Source: Spirochaetota bacterium (GTDB lineage Bacteria; Spirochaetota; Brachyspiria; Brachyspirales; JACRPF01). From it: a stretch of 64,000 bases of DNA. A program made the translations under genes and the position numbers. The notes beneath the pieces are model-generated. The model was given only the letters and a program-made list of their open reading frames with translations. It did no database searches and had not been told where the DNA came from. The stretch is from NCBI GenBank assembly GCA_016214035.1, contig JACRPF010000013.1:1-64000 (forward strand). The letters are read 5' to 3'. Shown one piece after another: positions 19,966 to 60,712 of the stretch (positions are counted from its first letter, which is position 1; the number at the start of each line of letters is the position of its first letter).

Positions 19966-21414
19966 TCAGATCATCGCCAGGTCGCTTTTCCCCATAAGAT
20001 GCATATCGATGGCGCGCGCGGTCTTTCTGCCCTCGGCAATGGCCCAGACGATGAGCGACTGTCCGCGGCGCATGTCGCCGGCGGAGAAGACATTTTTCAC
20101 CGATGTCATATAGTTCGCATCGGTTTTCACATTGCCGCGTTCGTCGAGTGCAACGCCGAGAGCGGATATCACGCCGGTCTTTTCCGGTCCGAGAAAGCCG
20201 ATGCACAGGAGCACGAGGTCAGCCGGTATGGAGAACTCGCTTCCCGGCAGTTCCTTCATCTGCGGCACACCGCGGGCGTCCTTGCCGGGGAAATTGACGC
20301 GCGTACAGGTGATCGATGAGACCGAGGTGCCGTCGCCGGTGAATTTCTTGGTGAGCACAGCCCAGTCGCGGTTCACGCCTTCCTGATGGCTCGAGGTTGT
20401 CTTCAGGAGCATCGGGAAACGCGGCCACGGATAATCCTCGTTGCGCGCGTTCGGCGGCATGGGCATCACTTCTATCTGCACCACGGACTTTGCACCCTGA
20501 CGGTTCGCCGTGCCAACGCAGTCGCTGCCGGTGTCTCCGCCGCCCACGACCACCACATTTTTGCCGCTGGCGTCGATGCGCGGCTCGGAGAACGCTTCGC
20601 CGCTCACGAGTTTGTTCGATTGCGTGAGATATTCCATCGCGTAATGTATTCCCTTGAGGTTCCGTCCTTCGATGGAAAGGTCACGCGGGAGTTTTGCCCC
20701 GCCGGCGAGACAGACCGCGTCAAACGTCTTCGTGAGTTCCGCGGCGTCGTAGTTCACGCCTACGGAAACGCCGGTTTTGAACTCGATGCCTTCGTCCTGC
20801 ATGAGCTTCACGCGGCGGTCGAGTATCCATTTTTCAAGTTTGAAGTCGGGGATGCCGTAGCGCATCACGCCGCCGATCTTCTGTTCACGCTCGAACACCG
20901 TCACGCTGTGACCGGCGCGGTTAAGCTGCATGGCTGCGGAAAGTCCCGACGGACCGGAACCCACGACGGCCACTTTTTTACCCGTACGCACACGCGGCGG
21001 GCGCGGGGTGATGAGCCCGTTGCGGAACGCGTATTCGATTATCGACAGTTCGTTCTCGCGTATCGTCACCGGGTCGTCGTTAATACCGAGCACGCATGAG
21101 AATTCGCAGAGCGCCGGACACACGCGGCCGGTTATTTCCGGCAGGTTGTTCGTGCTGTTGAGTATGGCGAACGCGCGCGCCCAGTGCGAGTTCATGACGA
21201 GGTCGTTCCACTCGGGGATGACGTTTCCCACCGGACAGGCCCAGTGGCAGAACGGCACACCGCAGTCCATGCAGCGCGACGACTGTTCCTGCGATTCATC
21301 ATCGGCACGGAGCAGCGCCACGTGCTGATAATCCTTCACACGTTCATACACCGGACGGTACGTCTCGTGCTTGCGTTCTATCTTTAAAAATGCGAGAAGA
21401 TCTTTCTTAGCCAT
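19966..21414 (-). CDS. gltD: Glutamate synthase [NADPH] small subunit
   Basis: GltD passes electrons from NADPH through FAD and Fe-S clusters to the large subunit, which makes glutamate from 2-oxoglutarate and glutamine. The 482-residue protein has the N-terminal Fe-S cysteine set (CMDCGVPFCHWACPVGN, then VCPALCEFSC), an FAD-binding 'VVGSGPSGLSAA' near residue 150, and the NADPH fold 'VVVVGGGDTGSDCVG'. The C-terminus has 'GDMRRGQSLIVWAIAEGR'. The start overlaps the gltB stop by eight bases (translational coupling), the usual gltB-gltD order. Confidence 0.96.
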   Translation of the reverse strand: MAKKDLLAFLKIERKHETYRPVYERVKDYQHVALLRADDESQEQSSRCMDCGVPFCHWACPVGNVIPEWNDLVMNSHWARAFAILNSTNNLPEITGRVCPALCEFSCVLGINDDPVTIRENELSIIEYAFRNGLITPRPPRVRTGKKVAVVGSGPSGLSAAMQLNRAGHSVTVFEREQKIGGVMRYGIPDFKLEKWILDRRVKLMQDEGIEFKTGVSVGVNYDAAELTKTFDAVCLAGGAKLPRDLSIEGRNLKGIHYAMEYLTQSNKLVSGEAFSEPRIDASGKNVVVVGGGDTGSDCVGTANRQGAKSVVQIEVMPMPPNARNEDYPWPRFPMLLKTTSSHQEGVNRDWAVLTKKFTGDGTSVSSITCTRVNFPGKDARGVPQMKELPGSEFSIPADLVLLCIGFLGPEKTGVISALGVALDERGNVKTDANYMTSVKNVFSAGDMRRGQSLIVWAIAEGRKTARAIDMHLMGKSDLAMI

Positions 21415-24400
21415 CGAGCACTCCTGAAAGCAGCATCTGTTCGTTCATCTTTTTCGTCTCAAGGATGCGCTTGTATTCGAGCGGCATCACCTTCACGAAT
21501 CGTTTCAACTCGGTTGCGGCGTTGTCGAGCACCGTACGGGCAACCGCGCTTTTCGTATACCGGAAATGATTGGAAATAAGCGAGCGCACCAGTGTTATGT
21601 CGTAATCGTTGAGCGCACCGAGCTCCACCATTTCCATGTTACAGCGGTCTTTCACCGTGCCGTCCTTATCGTAGACATAGCCGATGCCGCCGGACATGCC
21701 CGCAGCGAAATTCCTGCCGATGCGCCCGAGAACCACGATGCGTCCGCCGGTCATGTATTCGAGGCCGTGGTCGCCCACGCCTTCCACGACGCCGTAGACA
21801 CCGGAGTTGCGTATGCAGAACCGCTCGCCCGCCACGCCGCGGATGTACGCCTCGCCGCGTATCGCGCCGTAGAACGCGGTGTTGCCGATGATGATATTCT
21901 CATCACTTGCGTACGTTGTTCCGGCCGACGGCTGGATGACGATGCGTCCGCCGAACATGCCCTTGCCCACATAGTCGTTCGCCATGCCTTCAAGCTCGAA
22001 CGACACGCCGCGTATCAGGAATGCACCGAAGCTCTGTCCGGCAACGCCTTTGAATTTGCATGTCACCGTGTTTTCGGGAAGTCCTTCCTCGCCGTGTTTC
22101 TTGCATATCTCGCCGGAGAGCATTGCCCCTGTGGTGCGGTTGCTGTTATAAAGCGGCATGCATATCTCAACGGGCTTGCGGTTGCTGATAGCCTCGGCTG
22201 CCTTTTCGATGAGCGTCACGTCGAGTACGTTCTCGATGCCGTGGTCCTGCTGCTGTGTTTTGCGTATGCCCACCGTTTTCGGAACGTCGGGCTTGTGCAG
22301 TATCCGTGAATAATCGAGTTTGGGCGTCTTCTGCGGCACGAGCGCATTGTTGACGCCGAGGAATTCCGTCCGGCCGATGAGCTCGTCGATGGATCGTACG
22401 CCGATGGCCGCCATGTGTTCGCGCGCCTCTTCGGCGATGAAGGTGAAGAAATTGGTGAGATGGTCAACCTGGCCGCGGAAACGCGCGGAGAGCATTTCGT
22501 CCTGCGTGGCAACACCCACCGAACAGTTGTTGTAGTGGCAGTGCCGAAGCATCACGCAGCCGAGTGTTATGAGCGCGCCGGTAGCGAATCCATACTCCTC
22601 GGCACCGAGCATCGCCGCGATGACGATGTCGCGCCCCGTGCGGAGCTGTCCGTCCGTCTGAAGCGTCACCCGGCTTCTGAGGTCGTTCATCACGAGCGTC
22701 TGATGCGCTTCTGATAATCCAAGTTCCCAGGGAAGTCCCGCATGCTTGATGGAGCTTATCGGTGACGCGCCGGTGCCGCCGTCGCCGCCGGCGATGACGA
22801 TCATGTCCGCGTGGCCTTTCGCCACACCCGCGGCAACTGTTCCCACGCCGATCTCCGATACGAGTTTCACGCTGATGCGCGCCTTGGGGTTCACGTTTTT
22901 GAGGTCGAAGATAAGCTGCGCCAGGTCTTCAATAGAATAGATGTCGTGATGCGGCGGCGGAGAGATGAGCGTAACGCCCTCGGTGGTATAGCGCGTGCGT
23001 GCGATGATGGCGCTCACTTTGTGCCCCGGAAGCTGTCCGCCTTCACCGGGTTTCGCGCCCTGCGCTATTTTGATCTGCAGTTCATCCGCGTTGACGAGAT
23101 AATTCGTGGTGACGCCGAAACGTCCCGATGCCACCTGCTTGATGGCGCTGCGTTTCGAATCCCCGTTGGGGAGTTTTATGAAACGTACCGGGTCCTCGCC
23201 GCCCTCGCCGGTATTCGATTTCCCGCCGATGCGGTTCATGACGATGGCCATCGTCTCGTGCGCGCCGCGGCTGATGGAGCCGAAGCTCATGGCGCCGGTG
23301 ACGAAACGCTTCATGATGTTCTTCGCAGGTTCCACTTCTTTGATCGGCACCGGTTTTCCCGGGACAAGCGAGAACACGCTTCTGAGCGTTGTAGGCTGTA
23401 TGGTCTGATTGTTGATGATGTTCGCGAACTCTTTGAATTTGCCGTAATCGCCGGTGCGCGTGGCATCCTGCAGAAGCGATATGGTCTCAGGATTCCAGAG
23501 ATGATACTCGCCGTCACGACGCCACTGATAGAGACCGCCCGCTGTGAGGAACGGTTCCGGCGCCGCGTTGTGGAACGCGTTCGCGTGTTTTCTGATGGTC
23601 TCATCCGCAAGCGTCGCAAACGTTGCACCGCCGATGCGTGACGGCGTGCCGATGAAGCATCTGTCGATGACCTCGTCGGAAAGCCCGAGCGCTTCGAATA
23701 TCTGCGCGCCGCGGTAACTGGCGAGTGTAGATATGCCCATCTTTGAAAGTACTTTCAGAATGCCTTTGTTGAGCGCCTTGACGTAATTGTATTTTGCGTC
23801 CTTGAGGTCCATGGACAGACGCTGTATGTCGATGAGACGCTGCAGCGCCTCGAACGCGAGATACGGGTTGACGGCATCCGCGCCGTAACCGAGGAGTACC
23901 GCGAAATGATGAACCTCGCGCGGTTCGCCGGTCTCGAGCACCACGCCTATCTGGGTGCGCATCGACAGCGCCGTAAGCCGGTGATGCACCGCGCCCACGG
24001 CAAGGAGGGCCGGCAGCGGCGCCAGGTCTTTCGTGACACCGCGGTCGCTCAGGATGACGAAGGTGTGTCCGTCGTGTATCGCCTGTTCGGCTGCGGCGCA
24101 CACACGGTCTATGGCCGCGGTAAAATCGTTTTTGTCGTGCGGGTTGAAGAGCATCGGCACCGTCACCGATGAAAATCCGTTCGCTTTCAGGCCGCGTATC
24201 TTTTCCAGGTCTTCGTTGCGGAGCACCGGACTGTCGATAAACAGACGCCGCGCGTGTTCCGGGGTTTCATCAAGTATATTCTTCTGCGGACCGATGAAGC
24301 CGCCGAGCGTCATAACAATCTGTTCACGTATGGAGTCTATCGGCGGGTTCGTTACCTGCGCAAAAAGCTGCTTGAAATACGTATAGAGCATATGTGGGTT

Positions 24401-25915
24401 TTTCGAAAACGCCGCCGGCGGTGCGTCGTTGCCCATCGACCCCACGGGTTCCTCGCCGCTTTCCGCCATCGGACGGAGTATGATGCGCATGTCTTCGCGT
24501 GAATAACCGAACGCGGCGAGCTGCGAGAGCACATCATCAGTCAGGTGTTTCGTTCCGGACTGGGCCGGGAGTGCTGCGAGGGCGAGCGCATTGTCGCTCA
24601 GCCATTTTCCGTACGGCTTTGCAGCGGCAAGTTCCTGTTTGACAGCGGCATCGTCGATGATGGCGCCTTTCGACGTATCGATGAGGAATATCTTTCCCGG
24701 TTCGATGCGTCCCGAATGCTCGATGTCCTCGGCCGGAATGTCGAGTACGCCGACCTCGGATGCCATGACCACCATGCCGCTTTTCGTGACGAGATACCGC
24801 GCCGGGCGAAGGCCGTTACGGTCGAGAAGCGCCCCGATAACGGTGCCGTCGGATATGGCGAGTGCCGCGGGTCCGTCCCACGGTTCCATGAGGCAGGCAT
24901 GATACCGGTAGAAATCCTTTGTCTGCTGGTTAAGCGATGTGTTATTCTCCCACGCGCTCGGCACGAGCATGAGCATGGCGTGCGCGAGCGAGCGGCCGCT
25001 CAGCGTGAGGAGTTCAAACGCATTGTCGAGCGCCGCGCTGTCGCTGCCGCCGGGTACTACAACCGGTGAAAAATGCTTCACATCGTCGCCGAAAAGATCG
25101 CTTTTGAGGAGCGCCTCGCGTGCGCGCATCCAGTTGATATTCCCGCGCAGCGTATTGATCTCGCCGTTATGGGCGAGGAAGCGGAACGGCTGGGCGAGGT
25201 CCCACGTGGGAAACGTGTTCGTGCTGTAGCGTGAGTGTACCAGCGCTATGGCGCTTTCCATCGTCTCGTCGTTGAGATCGGGGAAGAATTTTTCCATCTG
25301 ATCGGGCATGAGAAGCCCTTTATAGATGAATGTGCGCGAGGAGAGACTCGGCAGATAAAAGAATTTCTTCTCCGAAAGCTCGGCGTTACGCACCGCGTTT
25401 TCGGCGATCTTGCGAATGACGTAAAGCTTACGTTCGAACGCAAGCCCTTCAACACCTACAGCGCCGATGAATATCTGGCGTACCACCGGCTGTGCTGCAC
25501 GCGCTGTTTCTCCGATGGCCGATCCGGTGACGGGAACGTCGCGCCAGCCGAGGAGCTTCTGGCCGGTCGCGGTTACGGCGGATTCGAGCGCCTTCACACA
25601 GATTGCGCGTTCTTTTTCCTTCTGCGGAAGGAATACAAGTCCGCTGCCGTATGTTCCCGGCTCGGGGAGTTTAAATGAGACCGATTTGACGAAAAACCGA
25701 TGCGGCAGCTGGAGAAGTATTCCCGCGCCATCGCCTGTCTTCGGGTCGGCACCGGTGGCGCCGCGATGCGCGAGCCTCCGGAGTATTTCAAGCCCCTGGC
25801 TGACGATGCGATGCGATTTCTCGCCGCGCATATTGCAGACAAAGCCCACACCGCAACTGTCATGTTCGAATTGAGGATCGTAGAGGCCCTGTTTGGGCGG
25901 AAGATGGTTATACAT
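21407..25915 (-). CDS. gltB: Glutamate synthase large subunit
   Basis: The 1502-residue ferredoxin/NADPH-type large subunit. It has an N-terminal type-2 glutamine amidotransferase whose nucleophile is Cys21 ('HDSCGVGF') after a 20-residue propeptide, then a central domain, an FMN-binding synthase barrel (GGDGGTGASPISSIKHAG), a 3Fe-4S motif 'CVMLRHCHYNNC' (C-x5-C-x4-C), and a C-terminal GXGXG beta-helix. Glutamine-derived ammonia is channelled to 2-oxoglutarate. Start 25915 has AAGGA five bases upstream; an ATG at 25939 would lengthen the propeptide by eight residues. A candidate sigma-54 promoter at 25994-26010 suggests nitrogen control. Confidence 0.97.
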   Translation of the reverse strand: MYNHLPPKQGLYDPQFEHDSCGVGFVCNMRGEKSHRIVSQGLEILRRLAHRGATGADPKTGDGAGILLQLPHRFFVKSVSFKLPEPGTYGSGLVFLPQKEKERAICVKALESAVTATGQKLLGWRDVPVTGSAIGETARAAQPVVRQIFIGAVGVEGLAFERKLYVIRKIAENAVRNAELSEKKFFYLPSLSSRTFIYKGLLMPDQMEKFFPDLNDETMESAIALVHSRYSTNTFPTWDLAQPFRFLAHNGEINTLRGNINWMRAREALLKSDLFGDDVKHFSPVVVPGGSDSAALDNAFELLTLSGRSLAHAMLMLVPSAWENNTSLNQQTKDFYRYHACLMEPWDGPAALAISDGTVIGALLDRNGLRPARYLVTKSGMVVMASEVGVLDIPAEDIEHSGRIEPGKIFLIDTSKGAIIDDAAVKQELAAAKPYGKWLSDNALALAALPAQSGTKHLTDDVLSQLAAFGYSREDMRIILRPMAESGEEPVGSMGNDAPPAAFSKNPHMLYTYFKQLFAQVTNPPIDSIREQIVMTLGGFIGPQKNILDETPEHARRLFIDSPVLRNEDLEKIRGLKANGFSSVTVPMLFNPHDKNDFTAAIDRVCAAAEQAIHDGHTFVILSDRGVTKDLAPLPALLAVGAVHHRLTALSMRTQIGVVLETGEPREVHHFAVLLGYGADAVNPYLAFEALQRLIDIQRLSMDLKDAKYNYVKALNKGILKVLSKMGISTLASYRGAQIFEALGLSDEVIDRCFIGTPSRIGGATFATLADETIRKHANAFHNAAPEPFLTAGGLYQWRRDGEYHLWNPETISLLQDATRTGDYGKFKEFANIINNQTIQPTTLRSVFSLVPGKPVPIKEVEPAKNIMKRFVTGAMSFGSISRGAHETMAIVMNRIGGKSNTGEGGEDPVRFIKLPNGDSKRSAIKQVASGRFGVTTNYLVNADELQIKIAQGAKPGEGGQLPGHKVSAIIARTRYTTEGVTLISPPPHHDIYSIEDLAQLIFDLKNVNPKARISVKLVSEIGVGTVAAGVAKGHADMIVIAGGDGGTGASPISSIKHAGLPWELGLSEAHQTLVMNDLRSRVTLQTDGQLRTGRDIVIAAMLGAEEYGFATGALITLGCVMLRHCHYNNCSVGVATQDEMLSARFRGQVDHLTNFFTFIAEEAREHMAAIGVRSIDELIGRTEFLGVNNALVPQKTPKLDYSRILHKPDVPKTVGIRKTQQQDHGIENVLDVTLIEKAAEAISNRKPVEICMPLYNSNRTTGAMLSGEICKKHGEEGLPENTVTCKFKGVAGQSFGAFLIRGVSFELEGMANDYVGKGMFGGRIVIQPSAGTTYASDENIIIGNTAFYGAIRGEAYIRGVAGERFCIRNSGVYGVVEGVGDHGLEYMTGGRIVVLGRIGRNFAAGMSGGIGYVYDKDGTVKDRCNMEMVELGALNDYDITLVRSLISNHFRYTKSAVARTVLDNAATELKRFVKVMPLEYKRILETKKMNEQMLLSGVLDG

Positions 25916-25993
25916 AGTATTCCTTGGCAGTAGAAACATACACGATAAGCGTTCGATATTTTATATGATTACGATAAAAATATCACCACTTGA

Positions 25994-55982: not shown

Positions 55983-57146
55983 CTATTCGATAATATGCGG
56001 AACGAAGCGGCTCATATTGCCGGTGATGCGCCCGTTCGTCTCACGGATGCCCATGCCGCACGCCGTGTCGCCGATTATCCAGCTTCCGATGACCGGATAA
56101 TTGCCGTTGAACCCCGGTATCTCCGTATACCGCTGCATTATCGACGAGCCGGCATAGGGGCCTTCAGCCTGGTCCACCACCCTGCCGCTTTCGAGTATGG
56201 TGATGTTGCTGCCTTCCCTGCCGAAGTAGGGTTTCTCCACCCATCTGCCGCTGCGGTCGAACTCCTCGTCGGAGAAATGCGCCGGAAGTATTGCTCCCGT
56301 ATCGCCGAATATCTTCGAGAGGAGCGGGAGCATCCCCTTGTTCGAGAGTATCATCTTCCACGGCGGTTCTATCCAATTCGTCCCCGCCGTCGTGAGGTTC
56401 CTGCCGAATTCCTCGTTCACCATCCATTCCCACGGATAGAGCTTATAGCACCAGCGCATCGGTTCGTCATTCATCGTGAACCGCCCGTCATCGGCGAGCC
56501 CTATCTCGTCCACATAAAACACGCGTGTCGTTATGCCCGCCTGATGCGCTACATCGGCCATGTATGTCGCGGTCATGAGGTCTTCGACATGTTCTTTAAC
56601 GCAGGCGCAGTAGAGCGTGTCGCTCCCGATGTCATTCGCGACGAACTTCCACGCGTCGAGCAGCGATTCATGGATATTGTTGAACTGGTCTTTCATGGGG
56701 TACACGTCTTTCAGCCAGTACCATTGCACCACGGACGCCTCGAGGAGTGACGTGGGTGTGTCAGCGTTGTACTCGAGCATCTTGATCGAACCCTCGGGTG
56801 TCACCACAAGGTCGAATCTGCCGTACATGGTCTTCGGAAAATCGTTCTCCCATGACTCCGCTATCCACGGGGCGAACGCTTCGGGGATGCTGAGTTTTTT
56901 GAGAAATGAATTCCGGTAACCGTTTTTCACATAATCGTCGACGACATGCCCGGTGAGCGTCAGACATTTTTCATGGAGGTCATTCGTCGCCGCTTCTATG
57001 CTGTCAATCTCACCGGGGGTAAAGGAGTAATACGCGCTTTCATCCCAGTACGGGAGGTTCTCTTCCTCGTCGGTATGAAAGACGAACCCCACGTCCTCGA
57101 CTTTCTTCTCCCACCCGCTGCGCGTTATGGCCGTGTGCCGTGTCAT
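55983..57146 (-). CDS. Glutathionylspermidine-synthase-type ATP-grasp ligase (YgiC-like)
   Basis: A 387-residue ATP-grasp enzyme closely resembling E. coli YgiC/YjfC and the synthetase half of Gss. Shared segments are 'GFVFHTDEEENLPYWDESAY', 'MLEYNADTPTSLLEASVVQW', 'WCYKLYPWEWM', 'WKMILSNKGMLPLL', 'EKPYFGREGSNI' and 'SWIIGDTACGMGIRE'. It should form an amide bond between a carboxylate and an amine, but the real substrates of YgiC-like proteins are not known. The ATG overlaps the stop of the lipoprotein gene (TAATG). Its operon partners resemble those of E. coli ygiBC. Confidence 0.85.
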   Translation of the reverse strand: MTRHTAITRSGWEKKVEDVGFVFHTDEEENLPYWDESAYYSFTPGEIDSIEAATNDLHEKCLTLTGHVVDDYVKNGYRNSFLKKLSIPEAFAPWIAESWENDFPKTMYGRFDLVVTPEGSIKMLEYNADTPTSLLEASVVQWYWLKDVYPMKDQFNNIHESLLDAWKFVANDIGSDTLYCACVKEHVEDLMTATYMADVAHQAGITTRVFYVDEIGLADDGRFTMNDEPMRWCYKLYPWEWMVNEEFGRNLTTAGTNWIEPPWKMILSNKGMLPLLSKIFGDTGAILPAHFSDEEFDRSGRWVEKPYFGREGSNITILESGRVVDQAEGPYAGSSIMQRYTEIPGFNGNYPVIGSWIIGDTACGMGIRETNGRITGNMSRFVPHIIE

Positions 57147-57478
57147 TACTGCGGTACAACCTTGTTGGACATGATGCCCGACATTATCTTCATATAAAGG
57201 TAATGCCCGTCATTGAACTGATTCGAATCGGATGACGCCATCAGTCTGAGCGAATCCTCGATGGTGAAAAAGAGATCGCCCTTGCCGCTGTCATTCGCCC
57301 ACGTGATCTTGAGGAGCAGCCGGTCGGTGGGCGTATCGCGGATGACCATGTCGGTTATATCGGCGTTGGAAAGCGAGACAAGCTTCGTGTAACGCTCGCG
57401 AAGCGTTCCGTTGGGCTTGTACCCGCCGCAGGAAACAACGAGAAGAATTGCCGGGATGAGTGCTATGATTTTTTTCAT
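57146..57478 (-). CDS. Small lipoprotein
   Basis: A 110-residue lipoprotein with a hydrophobic signal (ALIPAILLVVSCGG) and lipobox cysteine near residue 17. The mature part is small and has no recognised domain. It is encoded between the YgiB-like and YgiC-like genes and overlaps the latter's start, so it is probably a dedicated partner of the ligase. In the E. coli-type arrangement there is no lipoprotein in this position, so its role is unknown. The gene is 29 bases after the small YgiB-like gene, with CTGGAG before the ATG. Confidence 0.78.
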   Translation of the reverse strand: MKKIIALIPAILLVVSCGGYKPNGTLRERYTKLVSLSNADITDMVIRDTPTDRLLLKITWANDSGKGDLFFTIEDSLRLMASSDSNQFNDGHYLYMKIMSGIMSNKVVPQ

Positions 57479-57507
57479 ATATATCTCCAGTATACAGTAT
57501 ATACGCG

Positions 57508-57912
57508 CTATGACTTTGCCGAAAAGTGCGATGCCGACGAACCGAAACCGCCTTTCTTCGAACCTGATGAACCGGATGTTCCCGATGCGGCGCCGCCCTT
57601 TTTTGCGGTACCCTTCTCAGCGATCTTTGCGTTGGGGTCTGCGGGATCGAATGAACGTGTCGAGTAGAACGGACGGTTGAGCCAGAAGAACGGATAGATG
57701 AACGGCGCAAAGTGATATCTCGTATTCGCATTGGTCGCCATATTTGTTGCCGCCATGACACCTGATGATTTCAGCCCTTCGGTGCGGTACGAGTTCCAGT
57801 CCGTAAGCGACGCGCCCGCGGGCGCTTCTGCGCCTTTGCCGTAGCCGAGCGTCACCAGCGAACTGACTGCGATAAGCAGCTCGCCGATCTTCACCTTTTT
57901 TGATTTTTTCAT
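57508..57912 (-). CDS. Small Ser/Gly-rich protein, YgiB-like in position and C-terminus
   Basis: A 134-residue protein with an N-terminal basic stretch, a short hydrophobic segment (LLIAVSSLVTLG), a middle 'RYHFAPFIYPFFWLNRPFY' aromatic block, and a low-complexity C-terminus rich in Gly, Ser, Ala and Lys (GTSGSSGSKKGGFGSSAS). The Gly/Ser tail and the neighbouring YgiC-like ligase recall YgiB (DUF1190) of E. coli, which also ends in a GGFG-type tail. Direct homology is uncertain. It may be the ligase's substrate or an envelope anchor. The start at 57912 has GGGAGG six bases upstream; the ATG at 57948 does not. The 78-base gap before it has no obvious promoter. Confidence 0.6.
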   Translation of the reverse strand: MKKSKKVKIGELLIAVSSLVTLGYGKGAEAPAGASLTDWNSYRTEGLKSSGVMAATNMATNANTRYHFAPFIYPFFWLNRPFYSTRSFDPADPNAKIAEKGTAKKGGAASGTSGSSGSKKGGFGSSASHFSAKS

Positions 57913-57990
57913 GCTCGCCTCCCGCGCAATGCTTTGTACCCGGTGCACTATATCATATGTGCAGAAACATGTGCCGTGTGCGCGATAACG

Positions 57991-60561
57991 CTACTTCACG
58001 TTCGCGAAATAACACGTAACCTTCTGTTCGATGGCGTCCGCCGCGACAATGACGCCCGACGGCGTACGCGAAAGTTTTGCCGTATCGATGACCTTGACGG
58101 CATCCTTCCATTTTGCCGCGTCCGGAGCGATATCGGTAAGCACCGAAGGTGAGGTCTCGAAGAACGATGTGTTGATGAAATTATCCGCCTGCTGCGGGAA
58201 TACGGCGAGATAGAGCATATCGCGCTCGACGAGCTCGTTGAGGAAATGCGTACCGAGTGAAACATCGGGAACGAGGTCCTCGCGCATGGCCACCATCTCA
58301 CAGAGTATCGATACGTTATTAATCTCGGCGAACGATACCGGTATACCGAGTTCCGGTGAACTGGTGCCCCAGCGTCCGGGGCCGAGGAGCATCACCGGCA
58401 TGTTCTCAGGGCACGCATGATTGATGGTGCCGATGAGCCGCGCGATCTCATGGCGTTCGCGGAGCGGCAGATACCCGTACACCGACGGCACCACATAGAT
58501 GATGCGCGTGATGTTTTTCATCCGGCTCTGACCCACCACCGCGCAGCGCGCCTGGATAATGAGGTTATTATGTTCCACTTCGATAGCCGGAAGTTTTACC
58601 GCGTCAACGCCCTTCACCTGGAGCGGTCTGCACTGGACGATGTTGATGCGGTATGAGCTGTAGTCGTCGGCGACGTTCGCGGTGAACTCGATGTCGACCG
58701 GATGTTCATAGGCGCTCTGCAGATCGGCCAGCATGCCGCGCATATCCTTCGAGAACGGACCTTCGAGCAGTTCATCAAATGAGAGCATGCCTTCCGCATC
58801 TGCGGACTTTGCGGTGAACCGGCTGAGCAGTTCGGCGGGTATATGCTTCACGATGTCGGTGAACTGGCCGGATACGAGCTGATTGGCGTCGAGGTCGAGA
58901 TAATCCACTTTGCGCTGCGAGTAGCGCCGCACTTCCTTGCTGTTCACTTCGGGGCGTTTCATCGGCTCGTTGAGCGCTACCAGACGCGTATAATCGTCGT
59001 CGGAACGGTTGACCGCGCGCGTGCCGAGACCGAAGACCAGACGCAGCACGCCCGCTTTCGGATCGATAGCGCGGTTCCATGCGAACGGATTGAACGAAAA
59101 GCCCACGCCGGCAACCGGCGGGAAATAATATTTTCCGAACGCATCGCCCGATACGCGCATGATGAGGAGCGCCATCTGCTCGTCGGAGTCGAGGAGACGC
59201 CTGCCCGCACGGTAGCGCAGCGCACGTTCGCTCATGGAGCTTGCGTAGATGGAACGCATGGCGGCGAGAAAGTCCTCGAGCCGTTTTGCGCGAGGACCCT
59301 GATTGGCGCAGAACACGCTTTCGTATTTGCCGGCGAATGAATTGCCGAAGTTGTCCTCGAGCAGCGAGCTTGAGCGCACGATGAACGGCGACTGCCCGAA
59401 GTGGTCGAGCACCTGTTCCAGTCTGCGCACGATATAGTCGGGAAAATGGCCGGTGAGAATCCGGCGCCGGGCCTCTTCGGACCCGTCGAGGAACGTTTTC
59501 GGGTCATGCTGCTTCTGGCGTATCCACCATACGCCGTTCGTGACGAGGTAGGTGTAGAACACATCGGAGCCGACGTAGAAATTATCGTGCGATTCCAGGA
59601 GCTGAGCATATCGCGGGTTGCTCTTGCGGACGATGGCGCGGGCGAGGAGCATGCCGACGGATTTACCGCCGATGAGCCCCGAGCCCACCATGCGGCGGAC
59701 TATCTGCAGCACGTCATCAAGGGTCATGTATTTCGAGATGAGCGCGAGCATCTTTTTATCGCGCGAAAGGAGCATGCGGGTGAGCTGGTTGAAGAAACCC
59801 GCCATGCGGTCGCTTCTGCCGCGGCCGGCCTTCATCTCGGCGTGTTCATCCTCGGCATCGAGCGCCATGCGCGCGGGAAAATCCATGTCGGCATCCGGGT
59901 CGTTCCAGTCCTCGTTTGCAAGCACCTCGGCGATGGTTACGCTCGAGGTCACCGGCGTCAGAGTGTCGCCGTGCATCGCGTGCAGCATGTGTATGGTCGG
60001 CGTATAGCGGTGCTGCACCTTCACCGGACGCACATAAAGCGAACCGGCATGTGTTACGAGATCTATAAAGAGCTGCGTCGTGGAGACGATGGGGTTGATG
60101 GCGTGCGTGGAATGGCGTTTTCGGTATAGTGCGAAATACGCAATCGTTTCAAGATCGTAGAGGTAGGGACAGGTAAGCATGAAGAAATTGCCGAGCATCT
60201 GGTCTGAGTACCAGTCTCCGGCAAGCTCCGAAAGGCAGTCGAACACGTAGCACGCGCCGCGTCCGTTCGATTCTATCGCCTTGTGTATGACGGTGATGAA
60301 ATTCTCAAAACCGTCCTCGGGCTTCAGTTCGTGCAGTTCAGAACACTGACTTTTAGACAGGAGCGCCGCGTGATTGGCGAATCTGAAGTACACAAGGCGC
60401 CGGTTCTGATTGAGCGCAGCAGCGGCAAACGGCTTGACGAACACGGCGTAATCGTCGATCGACGAAACCTGCCAGACGACGTTATCGCCGGGGATGAGTC
60501 CTTTGAGAACATGGTCGAGTCCGGATATACCGGAAGTCACTTTTATATCGATGGTATCCAT
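57991..60561 (-). CDS. PEP-synthase-type ATP-grasp protein with KaiC-like N-terminal domain
   Basis: An 856-residue protein. Residues about 1-200 resemble a KaiC/RecA ATPase ('VTSGISGLDHVLKGLIPGDN') but lack a proper Walker A (WQVSSIDDY in its place). Residues about 280-600 are the PEP synthase/PPDK N-terminal ATP-grasp domain: 'LIGGKSVGMLLARAIV', 'SPFIVRSSSLLEDNFGNSF', 'AGKYESVF' and 'INIVQCRPLQ'. The PEP-synthase swivelling His domain and TIM barrel are missing; a 220-residue C-terminal domain of unknown type follows ('MPVMLLGPGRWGTSSPELGI'). It probably phosphorylates something using ATP. The start at 60561 has GGAG 11 bases upstream; the ATG at 60579 has none. The promoter overlaps the terminator upstream. 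Confidence 0.75.
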   Translation of the reverse strand: MDTIDIKVTSGISGLDHVLKGLIPGDNVVWQVSSIDDYAVFVKPFAAAALNQNRRLVYFRFANHAALLSKSQCSELHELKPEDGFENFITVIHKAIESNGRGACYVFDCLSELAGDWYSDQMLGNFFMLTCPYLYDLETIAYFALYRKRHSTHAINPIVSTTQLFIDLVTHAGSLYVRPVKVQHRYTPTIHMLHAMHGDTLTPVTSSVTIAEVLANEDWNDPDADMDFPARMALDAEDEHAEMKAGRGRSDRMAGFFNQLTRMLLSRDKKMLALISKYMTLDDVLQIVRRMVGSGLIGGKSVGMLLARAIVRKSNPRYAQLLESHDNFYVGSDVFYTYLVTNGVWWIRQKQHDPKTFLDGSEEARRRILTGHFPDYIVRRLEQVLDHFGQSPFIVRSSSLLEDNFGNSFAGKYESVFCANQGPRAKRLEDFLAAMRSIYASSMSERALRYRAGRRLLDSDEQMALLIMRVSGDAFGKYYFPPVAGVGFSFNPFAWNRAIDPKAGVLRLVFGLGTRAVNRSDDDYTRLVALNEPMKRPEVNSKEVRRYSQRKVDYLDLDANQLVSGQFTDIVKHIPAELLSRFTAKSADAEGMLSFDELLEGPFSKDMRGMLADLQSAYEHPVDIEFTANVADDYSSYRINIVQCRPLQVKGVDAVKLPAIEVEHNNLIIQARCAVVGQSRMKNITRIIYVVPSVYGYLPLRERHEIARLIGTINHACPENMPVMLLGPGRWGTSSPELGIPVSFAEINNVSILCEMVAMREDLVPDVSLGTHFLNELVERDMLYLAVFPQQADNFINTSFFETSPSVLTDIAPDAAKWKDAVKVIDTAKLSRTPSGVIVAADAIEQKVTCYFANVK

Positions 60562-60656
60562 AACGAGGGCATACTCCATTTAAAGGATGATTCGTCTGCG
60601 GATGGGTTGAAAAACGTACGTAAAACAAAAAGTACGGGTGTTTCAACGGTCGGGGC

Positions 60657-60684
60657 ATTATACAGCAAACCCCGTGTCCGTCAA
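60657..60684 (-). promoter_or_regulatory. Promoter of the ATP-grasp gene, inside a hairpin
   Basis: Minus strand: TTGACG (60684-60679), 16-base spacer, consensus TATAAT (60662-60657). The -35 box lies in the loop and stem of the hairpin at 60667-60703. Confidence 0.65.
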
Positions 60685-60712
60685 GATTGCGGACACGGGG
60701 TTTTGCGCTTTT
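60667..60712 (+). terminator. Strong stem-loop, terminator-like on the plus strand
   Basis: A perfect 14-bp stem (AAACCCCGTGTCCG at 60667-60680 with its complement at 60690-60703), 9-base loop, followed on the plus strand by TGCGC and a run of T. On the minus strand the hairpin is followed by a promoter rather than a T-run. No plus-strand gene ends here, so it may block antisense transcription or act weakly in both directions for the upstream GH4 gene. Confidence 0.6.

Follow-up and report, generated by a model that had tools for sequence, protein, structure and literature searches.

The window analysed here, 64,000 nucleotides from contig JACRPF010000013.1 of a Spirochaetota bacterium, carries a gene in which a KaiC-like domain is fused to the ATP-binding domain of PEP synthase, see Table 1. 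The domains that bind PEP appear to be missing. The question is what such a protein does with ATP, and in which process.

Table 1. Features of the KaiC-PPDK_N gene, its upstream region and the glutamate synthase genes in the window.
Feature	Position	Strand	Basis or remark
ORF, 862 aa	57991-60579	-	residue numbering follows this ORF
KaiC/PPDK_N gene, 856 aa with M7 as the likely start	57991..60561	-	start as in relatives
KaiC fold (RecA type), residues 9-223	59911..60555	-	AF2 model, VIA and conservation
PPDK/PEP-synthase ATP-grasp, residues 266-655	58615..59784	-	PF01326; VIA; K306, R402, E631, Q649, R651
C-terminal domain, residues 655-862, GPGRWGT..P.LG.PV motif	57994..58617	-	AF2, VIA; candidate swivelling domain
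GPGRWG motif, residues 733-738	58366..58383	-	alignment conservation
H778 codon (SLGTH778F), candidate phospho-histidine	58246..58248	-	conservation
Sigma-70-like promoter TTGACG-16-TATAAT	60657..60684	-	11/12 consensus matches
Hairpin, 15-bp stem, overlaps promoter	60667..60703		terminator-like on the + strand
gltB (NF008730)	21410-25939	-	32 kb from the KaiC-PPDK_N gene
gltD (TIGR01317)	19969-21414	-	adjacent to gltB, glutamate synthase pair

Domain architecture

The AlphaFold2 (AF2) model of the whole protein, built with 55 natural relatives, is confident along the full length (mean pLDDT 88.4, pTM 0.87). The sole Pfam match is PPDK_N (PF01326) at residues 302-660 (E 1.9e-47). The initial annotation described a KaiC-like domain without a P-loop, joined to a PEP-synthase-type ATP-grasp and without the PEP barrel, and both Pfam and structure agree with this. 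The PEP/pyruvate-binding barrel (PF02896) gives no Pfam match, and since the protein ends at residue 862 there is no room for it beyond the 208-residue C-terminal domain. The annotated length of 856 aa corresponds to a start at M7, which the alignment suggests is the likelier one, because most aligned relatives begin there. The protein is a variant of the PEP-synthase/PPDK dikinases with a pseudo-KaiC sensor; its ATP-grasp part is ordinary, the whole is unusual. A search of the available literature for a described KaiC-PPDK family or a link of it to glutamate dehydrogenase (GDH) found none.

Structurally, residues 9-209 align to KaiC 7s65_B with a VIA Z of 21.3 (192 aligned positions, rmsd 2.8), which bears out the proposed KaiC-like N-terminus. 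The KaiC Pfam model matches none of 55 members, and the weak matches that occur are to PAXNEB/Elp4 in four members and MEDS in one. The KaiC assignment therefore rests on the structure and on the STG..GLD start. As stated initially, the protein has no Walker A, and neither does any of the 111 KaiC-type relatives have GxxxxGK[ST] at the P-loop position (0/111); the single regex match among them, in L035, is off-site. The place of the Walker A is occupied by the family motif STG..GLD..L.G..PGDN.VWQV, in which PGDN.VWQV is the substitute family-wide, and a Walker-B-like FDCLS (D114) is retained. The fold, the STG..GLD start and the Walker-B-like sequence are shared with KaiC and with inactivated KaiC-like signalling domains. 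However, KaiC has its domains in tandem while our protein has a single one, and the Walker A is missing in the KaiC-type relatives examined.

The ATP-grasp domain matches dikinase structures with VIA Z between 23.5 and 26.1, including RPH 5hv1 (Z 26.1, 294 aligned positions, rmsd 2.9). All five ATP-site residues in Table 1 are invariant in the 111 KaiC-type relatives, and K306, R402, E631 and Q649 are also kept in seven sister proteins, see below. By motif position, K306, R402 and E631 correspond to K22, R117 and E297 of RPH, ATP-site residues of which K22 and R117 are required for resistance (PMC4844700). From this conservation it is quite likely that the ATP-grasp domain is catalytically active. 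The closest NCBIfam models to this part include PEP synthase, RPH and PigC/RedH. The PPDK_N domain and the key ATP-site residues are common to our protein and to PEP synthase and PPDK; in contrast to these enzymes, our protein has neither the PEP/pyruvate barrel nor a phosphohistidine domain detectable with PF00391.

The C-terminal domain and H778

The initial annotation also stated that the protein lacks the catalytic His. This is doubtful, as an invariant histidine, H778, sits in what may be a diverged swivelling domain. H778 is His in all 116 relatives that have the position, whatever their front end, and it is the only fully conserved His among the relatives. The GPGRWG motif is invariant or almost so in the 55-row alignment and is common to the sister types with a receiver (REC) domain and of the L020 type.

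Predicted alone with AlphaFold2, the C-terminal domain reaches a pLDDT of 91.9. In VIA, the top match of this model is the swivelling domain of RPH (5fbu 756-867; Z 6.0, 109 aligned positions, rmsd 3.9), and the list includes the central domain of PPDK (5jvn, 5jvl and 1vbg; Z 5.0-5.6); values of Z 5-6 lie within the range that the tool calls a common arrangement. Other weak matches are the N-terminal part of PTS enzyme I (nEI; Z 5.1), CCT apical domains, RraA and LD-carboxypeptidase. We take most of these matches to be swivelling beta/beta/alpha-type domains (SCOP fold c.8). The secondary structure of the model is beta-beta-alpha-beta-alpha-beta-alpha-beta, and GT-H778 opens the third long helix. 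The strand order fits that of the known phosphohistidine domains of PPDK and PEP synthase, in which the phospho-histidine would lie at this helix start.

By its own account, the initial annotation would be refuted by a match of the C-terminal domain to a PEP-synthase swivelling domain. At the fold level there is maybe such a match (RPH Z 6.0, PPDK Z 5.2-5.6), but Pfam, PDB-sequence and profile-profile comparisons do not confirm it. Foldseek of the domain against the PDB gave no significant match (best E 0.038). A Pfam scan of 55 C-terminal domains up to E 10, including PF00391, returned isolated chance matches only, and nothing beyond chance came from searching the PDB with a profile of the C-terminal alignment. 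Using hhalign, the alignment of the C-terminal domain against 11 real swivelling domains reached a probability of 0.3%, and none of the local, global and low-threshold modes gave support; the alignment was also tried after widening it with REC- and L020-type members. A tiny local hhalign match places ELGIP (743-747) on the ELGIPA of the swivelling domains, and in that register the His would be lost. When the ATP-grasp and C-terminus were aligned to PEP synthase with an anchor, the full length was covered in forced modes only, which does not settle the register. The published swivel motif is T/SxxGGxxxH (PMC12167813). This motif is absent from the C-terminal domain, and SLGTH stands where GGxTxH would be.

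In swivelling domains, a long helix follows the catalytic His. The GPGRWG...ELGIP stretch of the model has no long helix of this kind, and for this reason we lean, by a small step, towards the register at H778 over the one at ELGIP. That H778 is the phospho-carrier we likewise consider slightly better than an even bet. The C-terminal domain itself may, going by the model, be a diverged swivelling phosphohistidine domain.

Relatives and sister architectures

A pattern scan of genome contigs identified at least 580 relatives, and the best 80 of these span more than 10 phyla. The hosts of the best 80 belong to the Planctomycetota, Verrucomicrobiota, Lentisphaerota, Kiritimatiellae, Hydrogenedentota, Omnitrophota, Proteobacteria, Desulfobacterota-type lineages, Acidobacteria, Armatimonadota, Spirochaetes, Coriobacteriia and Fibrobacterota-type lineages, with a few archaeal MAGs. 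Within its own phylum the protein has a scattered distribution, with matches at E up to 1e-60 in 48 of 393 genomes. The closest relative, with 69% identity, comes from the single same-family genome. Outside this family, proteins of the same phylum are up to 50% identical, while proteins from other phyla reach 58%; those at 57-58% are from Planctomycetota, Verrucomicrobiota and delta-type proteobacterial MAGs (L022, L023, L025, L038, L090). As the identity to other phyla is the higher one, the sequences suggest a horizontal spread of the gene.

The ATP-grasp domain and the C-terminal domain with GPGRWG and GTHF form a module that also exists with other front ends, in sister proteins; the sister types that were aligned share 22-28% identity with the KaiC-PPDK_N protein. 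It is found behind a receiver domain in L013, L014 and L015 and in Bacteroidales (L103, L168, L169). The Bacteroidales proteins, annotated as 'PEP/pyruvate-binding domain-containing protein', share the module with ours but are about 985 aa long and have a receiver N-terminus (PF00072) in place of the KaiC-like fold. A REC-pyruvate phosphate dikinase combination has been mentioned, with no function given (PMC5847659). In L020 (1000-4191, minus strand), a protein of 1064 aa combines the module with a C-terminal nucleotidyltransferase (NTP_transf_2) and an N-terminus that has no Pfam match. A GDH-like match is located about 1 kb from the L020 gene, and similar proteins of 1033-1082 aa are present in other genomes of the phylum. 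To carry different front ends before the same enzymatic module is characteristic of signalling proteins. With these findings, the initial suggestion of a phosphotransfer or signalling protein agrees.

The pseudo-KaiC domain, in turn, is also found joined to a cupin and an HTH of the XRE type (L011 and L016, by Pfam), and one HTH-cupin relative matches PF06745 with E 7e-4, below the cut-off. Three genes of this family (L011:4067-5338, L016:856-2154 and L018:1129-2415) all encode the P-loop-less GDNVVW motif. Their start, STG..LDxxxGGxxxGDNVVW without a Walker A, is like that of our protein; however, they have the HTH and cupin where ours has the dikinase module. In L011, the HTH-cupin gene precedes the KaiC-PPDK_N gene by about 20 bp. 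These proteins may be the transcriptional arm of the KaiC-PPDK_N system.

Linkage to nitrogen-assimilation genes

The KaiC-PPDK_N family is linked to nitrogen assimilation, a conclusion that we hold with high confidence. Unbiased counts cover the phylum of the window, where 21 of the 31 orthologs have an NADP-GDH gene no more than 1.5 kb away. The same flanks contain GltB in three cases and NrpR in one, and any of the three genes in 23 of the 31, while none of 61 other PPDK, PEP-synthase or enzyme I loci has GDH, GltB or NrpR in its 1.5-kb flanks. Among 80 loci from many phyla, GDH is found within 2.5 kb in 34, NrpR in 10, GltB in five and any of them in 39; about half have no such neighbour within this distance. 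Full flanks are available for 43 of the 80 loci, and 23 of these have at least one of the three genes.

In the usual arrangement, GDH directly precedes the KaiC-PPDK_N gene on the same strand, at a distance of 44-330 bp. The identity of the neighbours was checked (NADP-GDH, NF006929, E 2.7e-221; NrpR, PF01995, E 3.2e-78). At loci without GDH, NrpR or GltB, two of the nearest neighbours are glutamine synthetases (GS), and in the closest relative gltB lies 40 bp downstream of the KaiC-PPDK_N gene. The sister architecture shows the linkage as well. In two of three Bacteroidales REC-PPDK_N loci gdhA is divergently adjacent (Parabacteroides) or within about 2 kb (Phocaeicola), and L013 also has gdhA nearby. 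The genome of the window has one gdhA, which lies on a different contig (C15) from the KaiC-PPDK_N gene.

In one BRC1 MAG (L048:1-2865, minus strand), a Cas12b (C2c1) gene that is cut by the contig end adjoins the KaiC-PPDK_N gene (PADLOC E 1.5e-204); this adjacency is probably coincidental.

Immediate neighbourhood and promoter

In the window, the gene is immediately flanked by GH4 genes and a gene of the GSP_synth type. The latter encodes an ATP-grasp protein (55983-57146) and lies downstream on the same strand, together with two small ORFs, in the region 55983-57948. One small ORF (57146-57478) has a lipoprotein-like start and the other (57508-57948) a Ser/Gly-rich end. We presume that this group resembles the E. 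coli ygiB/ygiC-type cassettes.

Upstream, the initial annotation placed the promoter within a strong hairpin. This is indeed the arrangement: the promoter-like TTGACG-16-TATAAT is nested in the 15-bp stem, and the hairpin folds better than 200 of 200 shuffles (z -4.7). On the minus strand, the element follows a GH4 gene. Visual inspection of the region ahead of the gene in the closest relative showed no comparable hairpin-promoter. For this reason it is more likely that the hairpin terminates the upstream GH4 gene and abuts the promoter than that it is a part of the system. A conserved control element was considered and rejected on the same comparison, and we treat the arrangement as local.

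Proposed mechanism and alternatives

We suggest that the protein is a sensor-fronted, ATP-driven histidine phosphotransferase that governs ammonium assimilation, and we give this reading a probability of about 0.45. The P-loop-less KaiC domain would be a sensor or interaction module; its position in the sister proteins is held by a response-regulator domain or by a different front end. The ATP-grasp domain would bind ATP and pass a phosphoryl or pyrophosphoryl group to a histidine of the putatively swivelling C-terminal domain, most probably H778, with release of AMP, as in PEP synthase, PPDK and RPH. Since the PEP barrel is absent, the acceptor should be something other than PEP or pyruvate. 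The best candidates are proteins or metabolites involved in making glutamate (GDH, GOGAT, GS or the NrpR circuit), and the effect would be regulatory and not biosynthetic. Our guess from the gene linkage is GDH, GOGAT, GS or one of their regulators as the final target.

The closest parallels for such chemistry are RPH and the two-component dikinases HpeHI/PpsAB. They have an ATP-grasp of the same fold (Z 26.1) with the K, R and E kept, and a path from ATP through phospho-histidine to a non-pyruvate acceptor, which is what we propose here. Unlike them, our protein has no rifampin- or phenol-binding domain and no T/SxxGGxxxH, and it carries a pseudo-KaiC front end. Outside the ATP-grasp part no NCBIfam model, that of RPH included, matches a domain of the acceptor-binding type, and the sole unassigned region is the 208-residue C-terminus.

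Of the alternatives, the one that survives best involves no phosphotransfer. The ATP-grasp and pseudo-KaiC domains would sense a nucleotide or metabolite, and the C-terminal domain would bind and switch GDH or another nitrogen enzyme. The linkage to GDH, GltB and NrpR, the P-loop-less KaiC domain and the C-terminal sequence, which gives no sign of a phosphohistidine domain, all fit this explanation. It has a precedent in GarA of actinobacteria, which is reported to control glutamate metabolism through direct binding (PMC5448819, PMC12321487). However, the ATP-grasp residues, including those that RPH needs for phosphoryl transfer, are strictly conserved, and a protein whose role is binding alone would have no need of an invariant H778. 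We therefore regard a binding switch as rather unlikely.

A somewhat less probable explanation places the protein in metabolism, as a dikinase or an ATP-dependent ligase comparable to RPH, HpeHI or the prodigiosin ligases; its substrate, which it would phosphorylate or activate, would be a small molecule akin to glutamate or 2-oxoglutarate. HpeHI-type small-molecule dikinases employ a separate ATP-grasp protein (PMC12167813), and PEP synthase, RPH and PigC/RedH are among the nearest NCBIfam models, but no domain was recognised that would bind an acceptor as in RPH or HpeH. Moreover, GDH, GOGAT, GS and NrpR as neighbours do not make up a single pathway with a missing step, and the exchange of receiver, KaiC-type and other front ends is what is typical of signalling proteins. 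Finally, it is improbable that the linkage is incidental and reflects shared regulation only, with the protein acting in general carbon or energy signalling and having no direct nitrogen role: the distant gdhA in its own genome and the half of the multi-phylum loci without a nitrogen neighbour would fit, but 21/31 orthologs against 0/61 controls speak against it, and the linkage recurs with other genes whose products make glutamate and in sister proteins of a different architecture.

The histidine phosphotransfer reading can be extended to the whole family, although more tentatively. It is conceivable, if on balance doubtful, that these proteins form a widespread nitrogen-regulatory phosphotransfer family, unrecognised before, that works like an ATP-driven counterpart of the nitrogen PTS. 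Swappable sensors (pseudo-KaiC, receiver and others) would then steer an ATP-grasp engine that phosphorylates H778 of a disguised swivelling domain, with the phosphate going on to GDH, glutamate synthase or their regulators.

Implications

Beyond the initial annotation, the analysis reveals that the family is large and that its genes adjoin those of glutamate dehydrogenase, glutamate synthase and NrpR. The protein is present in hundreds of bacterial and some archaeal genomes, where it is annotated at best as a PEP/pyruvate-binding protein. The prediction is directly testable, because it centres on one residue, H778, and one neighbouring enzyme, GDH. If GDH or glutamate synthase is indeed regulated by phosphotransfer, this would explain how the energy state is coupled to ammonium assimilation in many organisms, and the dikinase superfamily would gain an ATP-driven histidine-phosphotransfer design without a PEP barrel.
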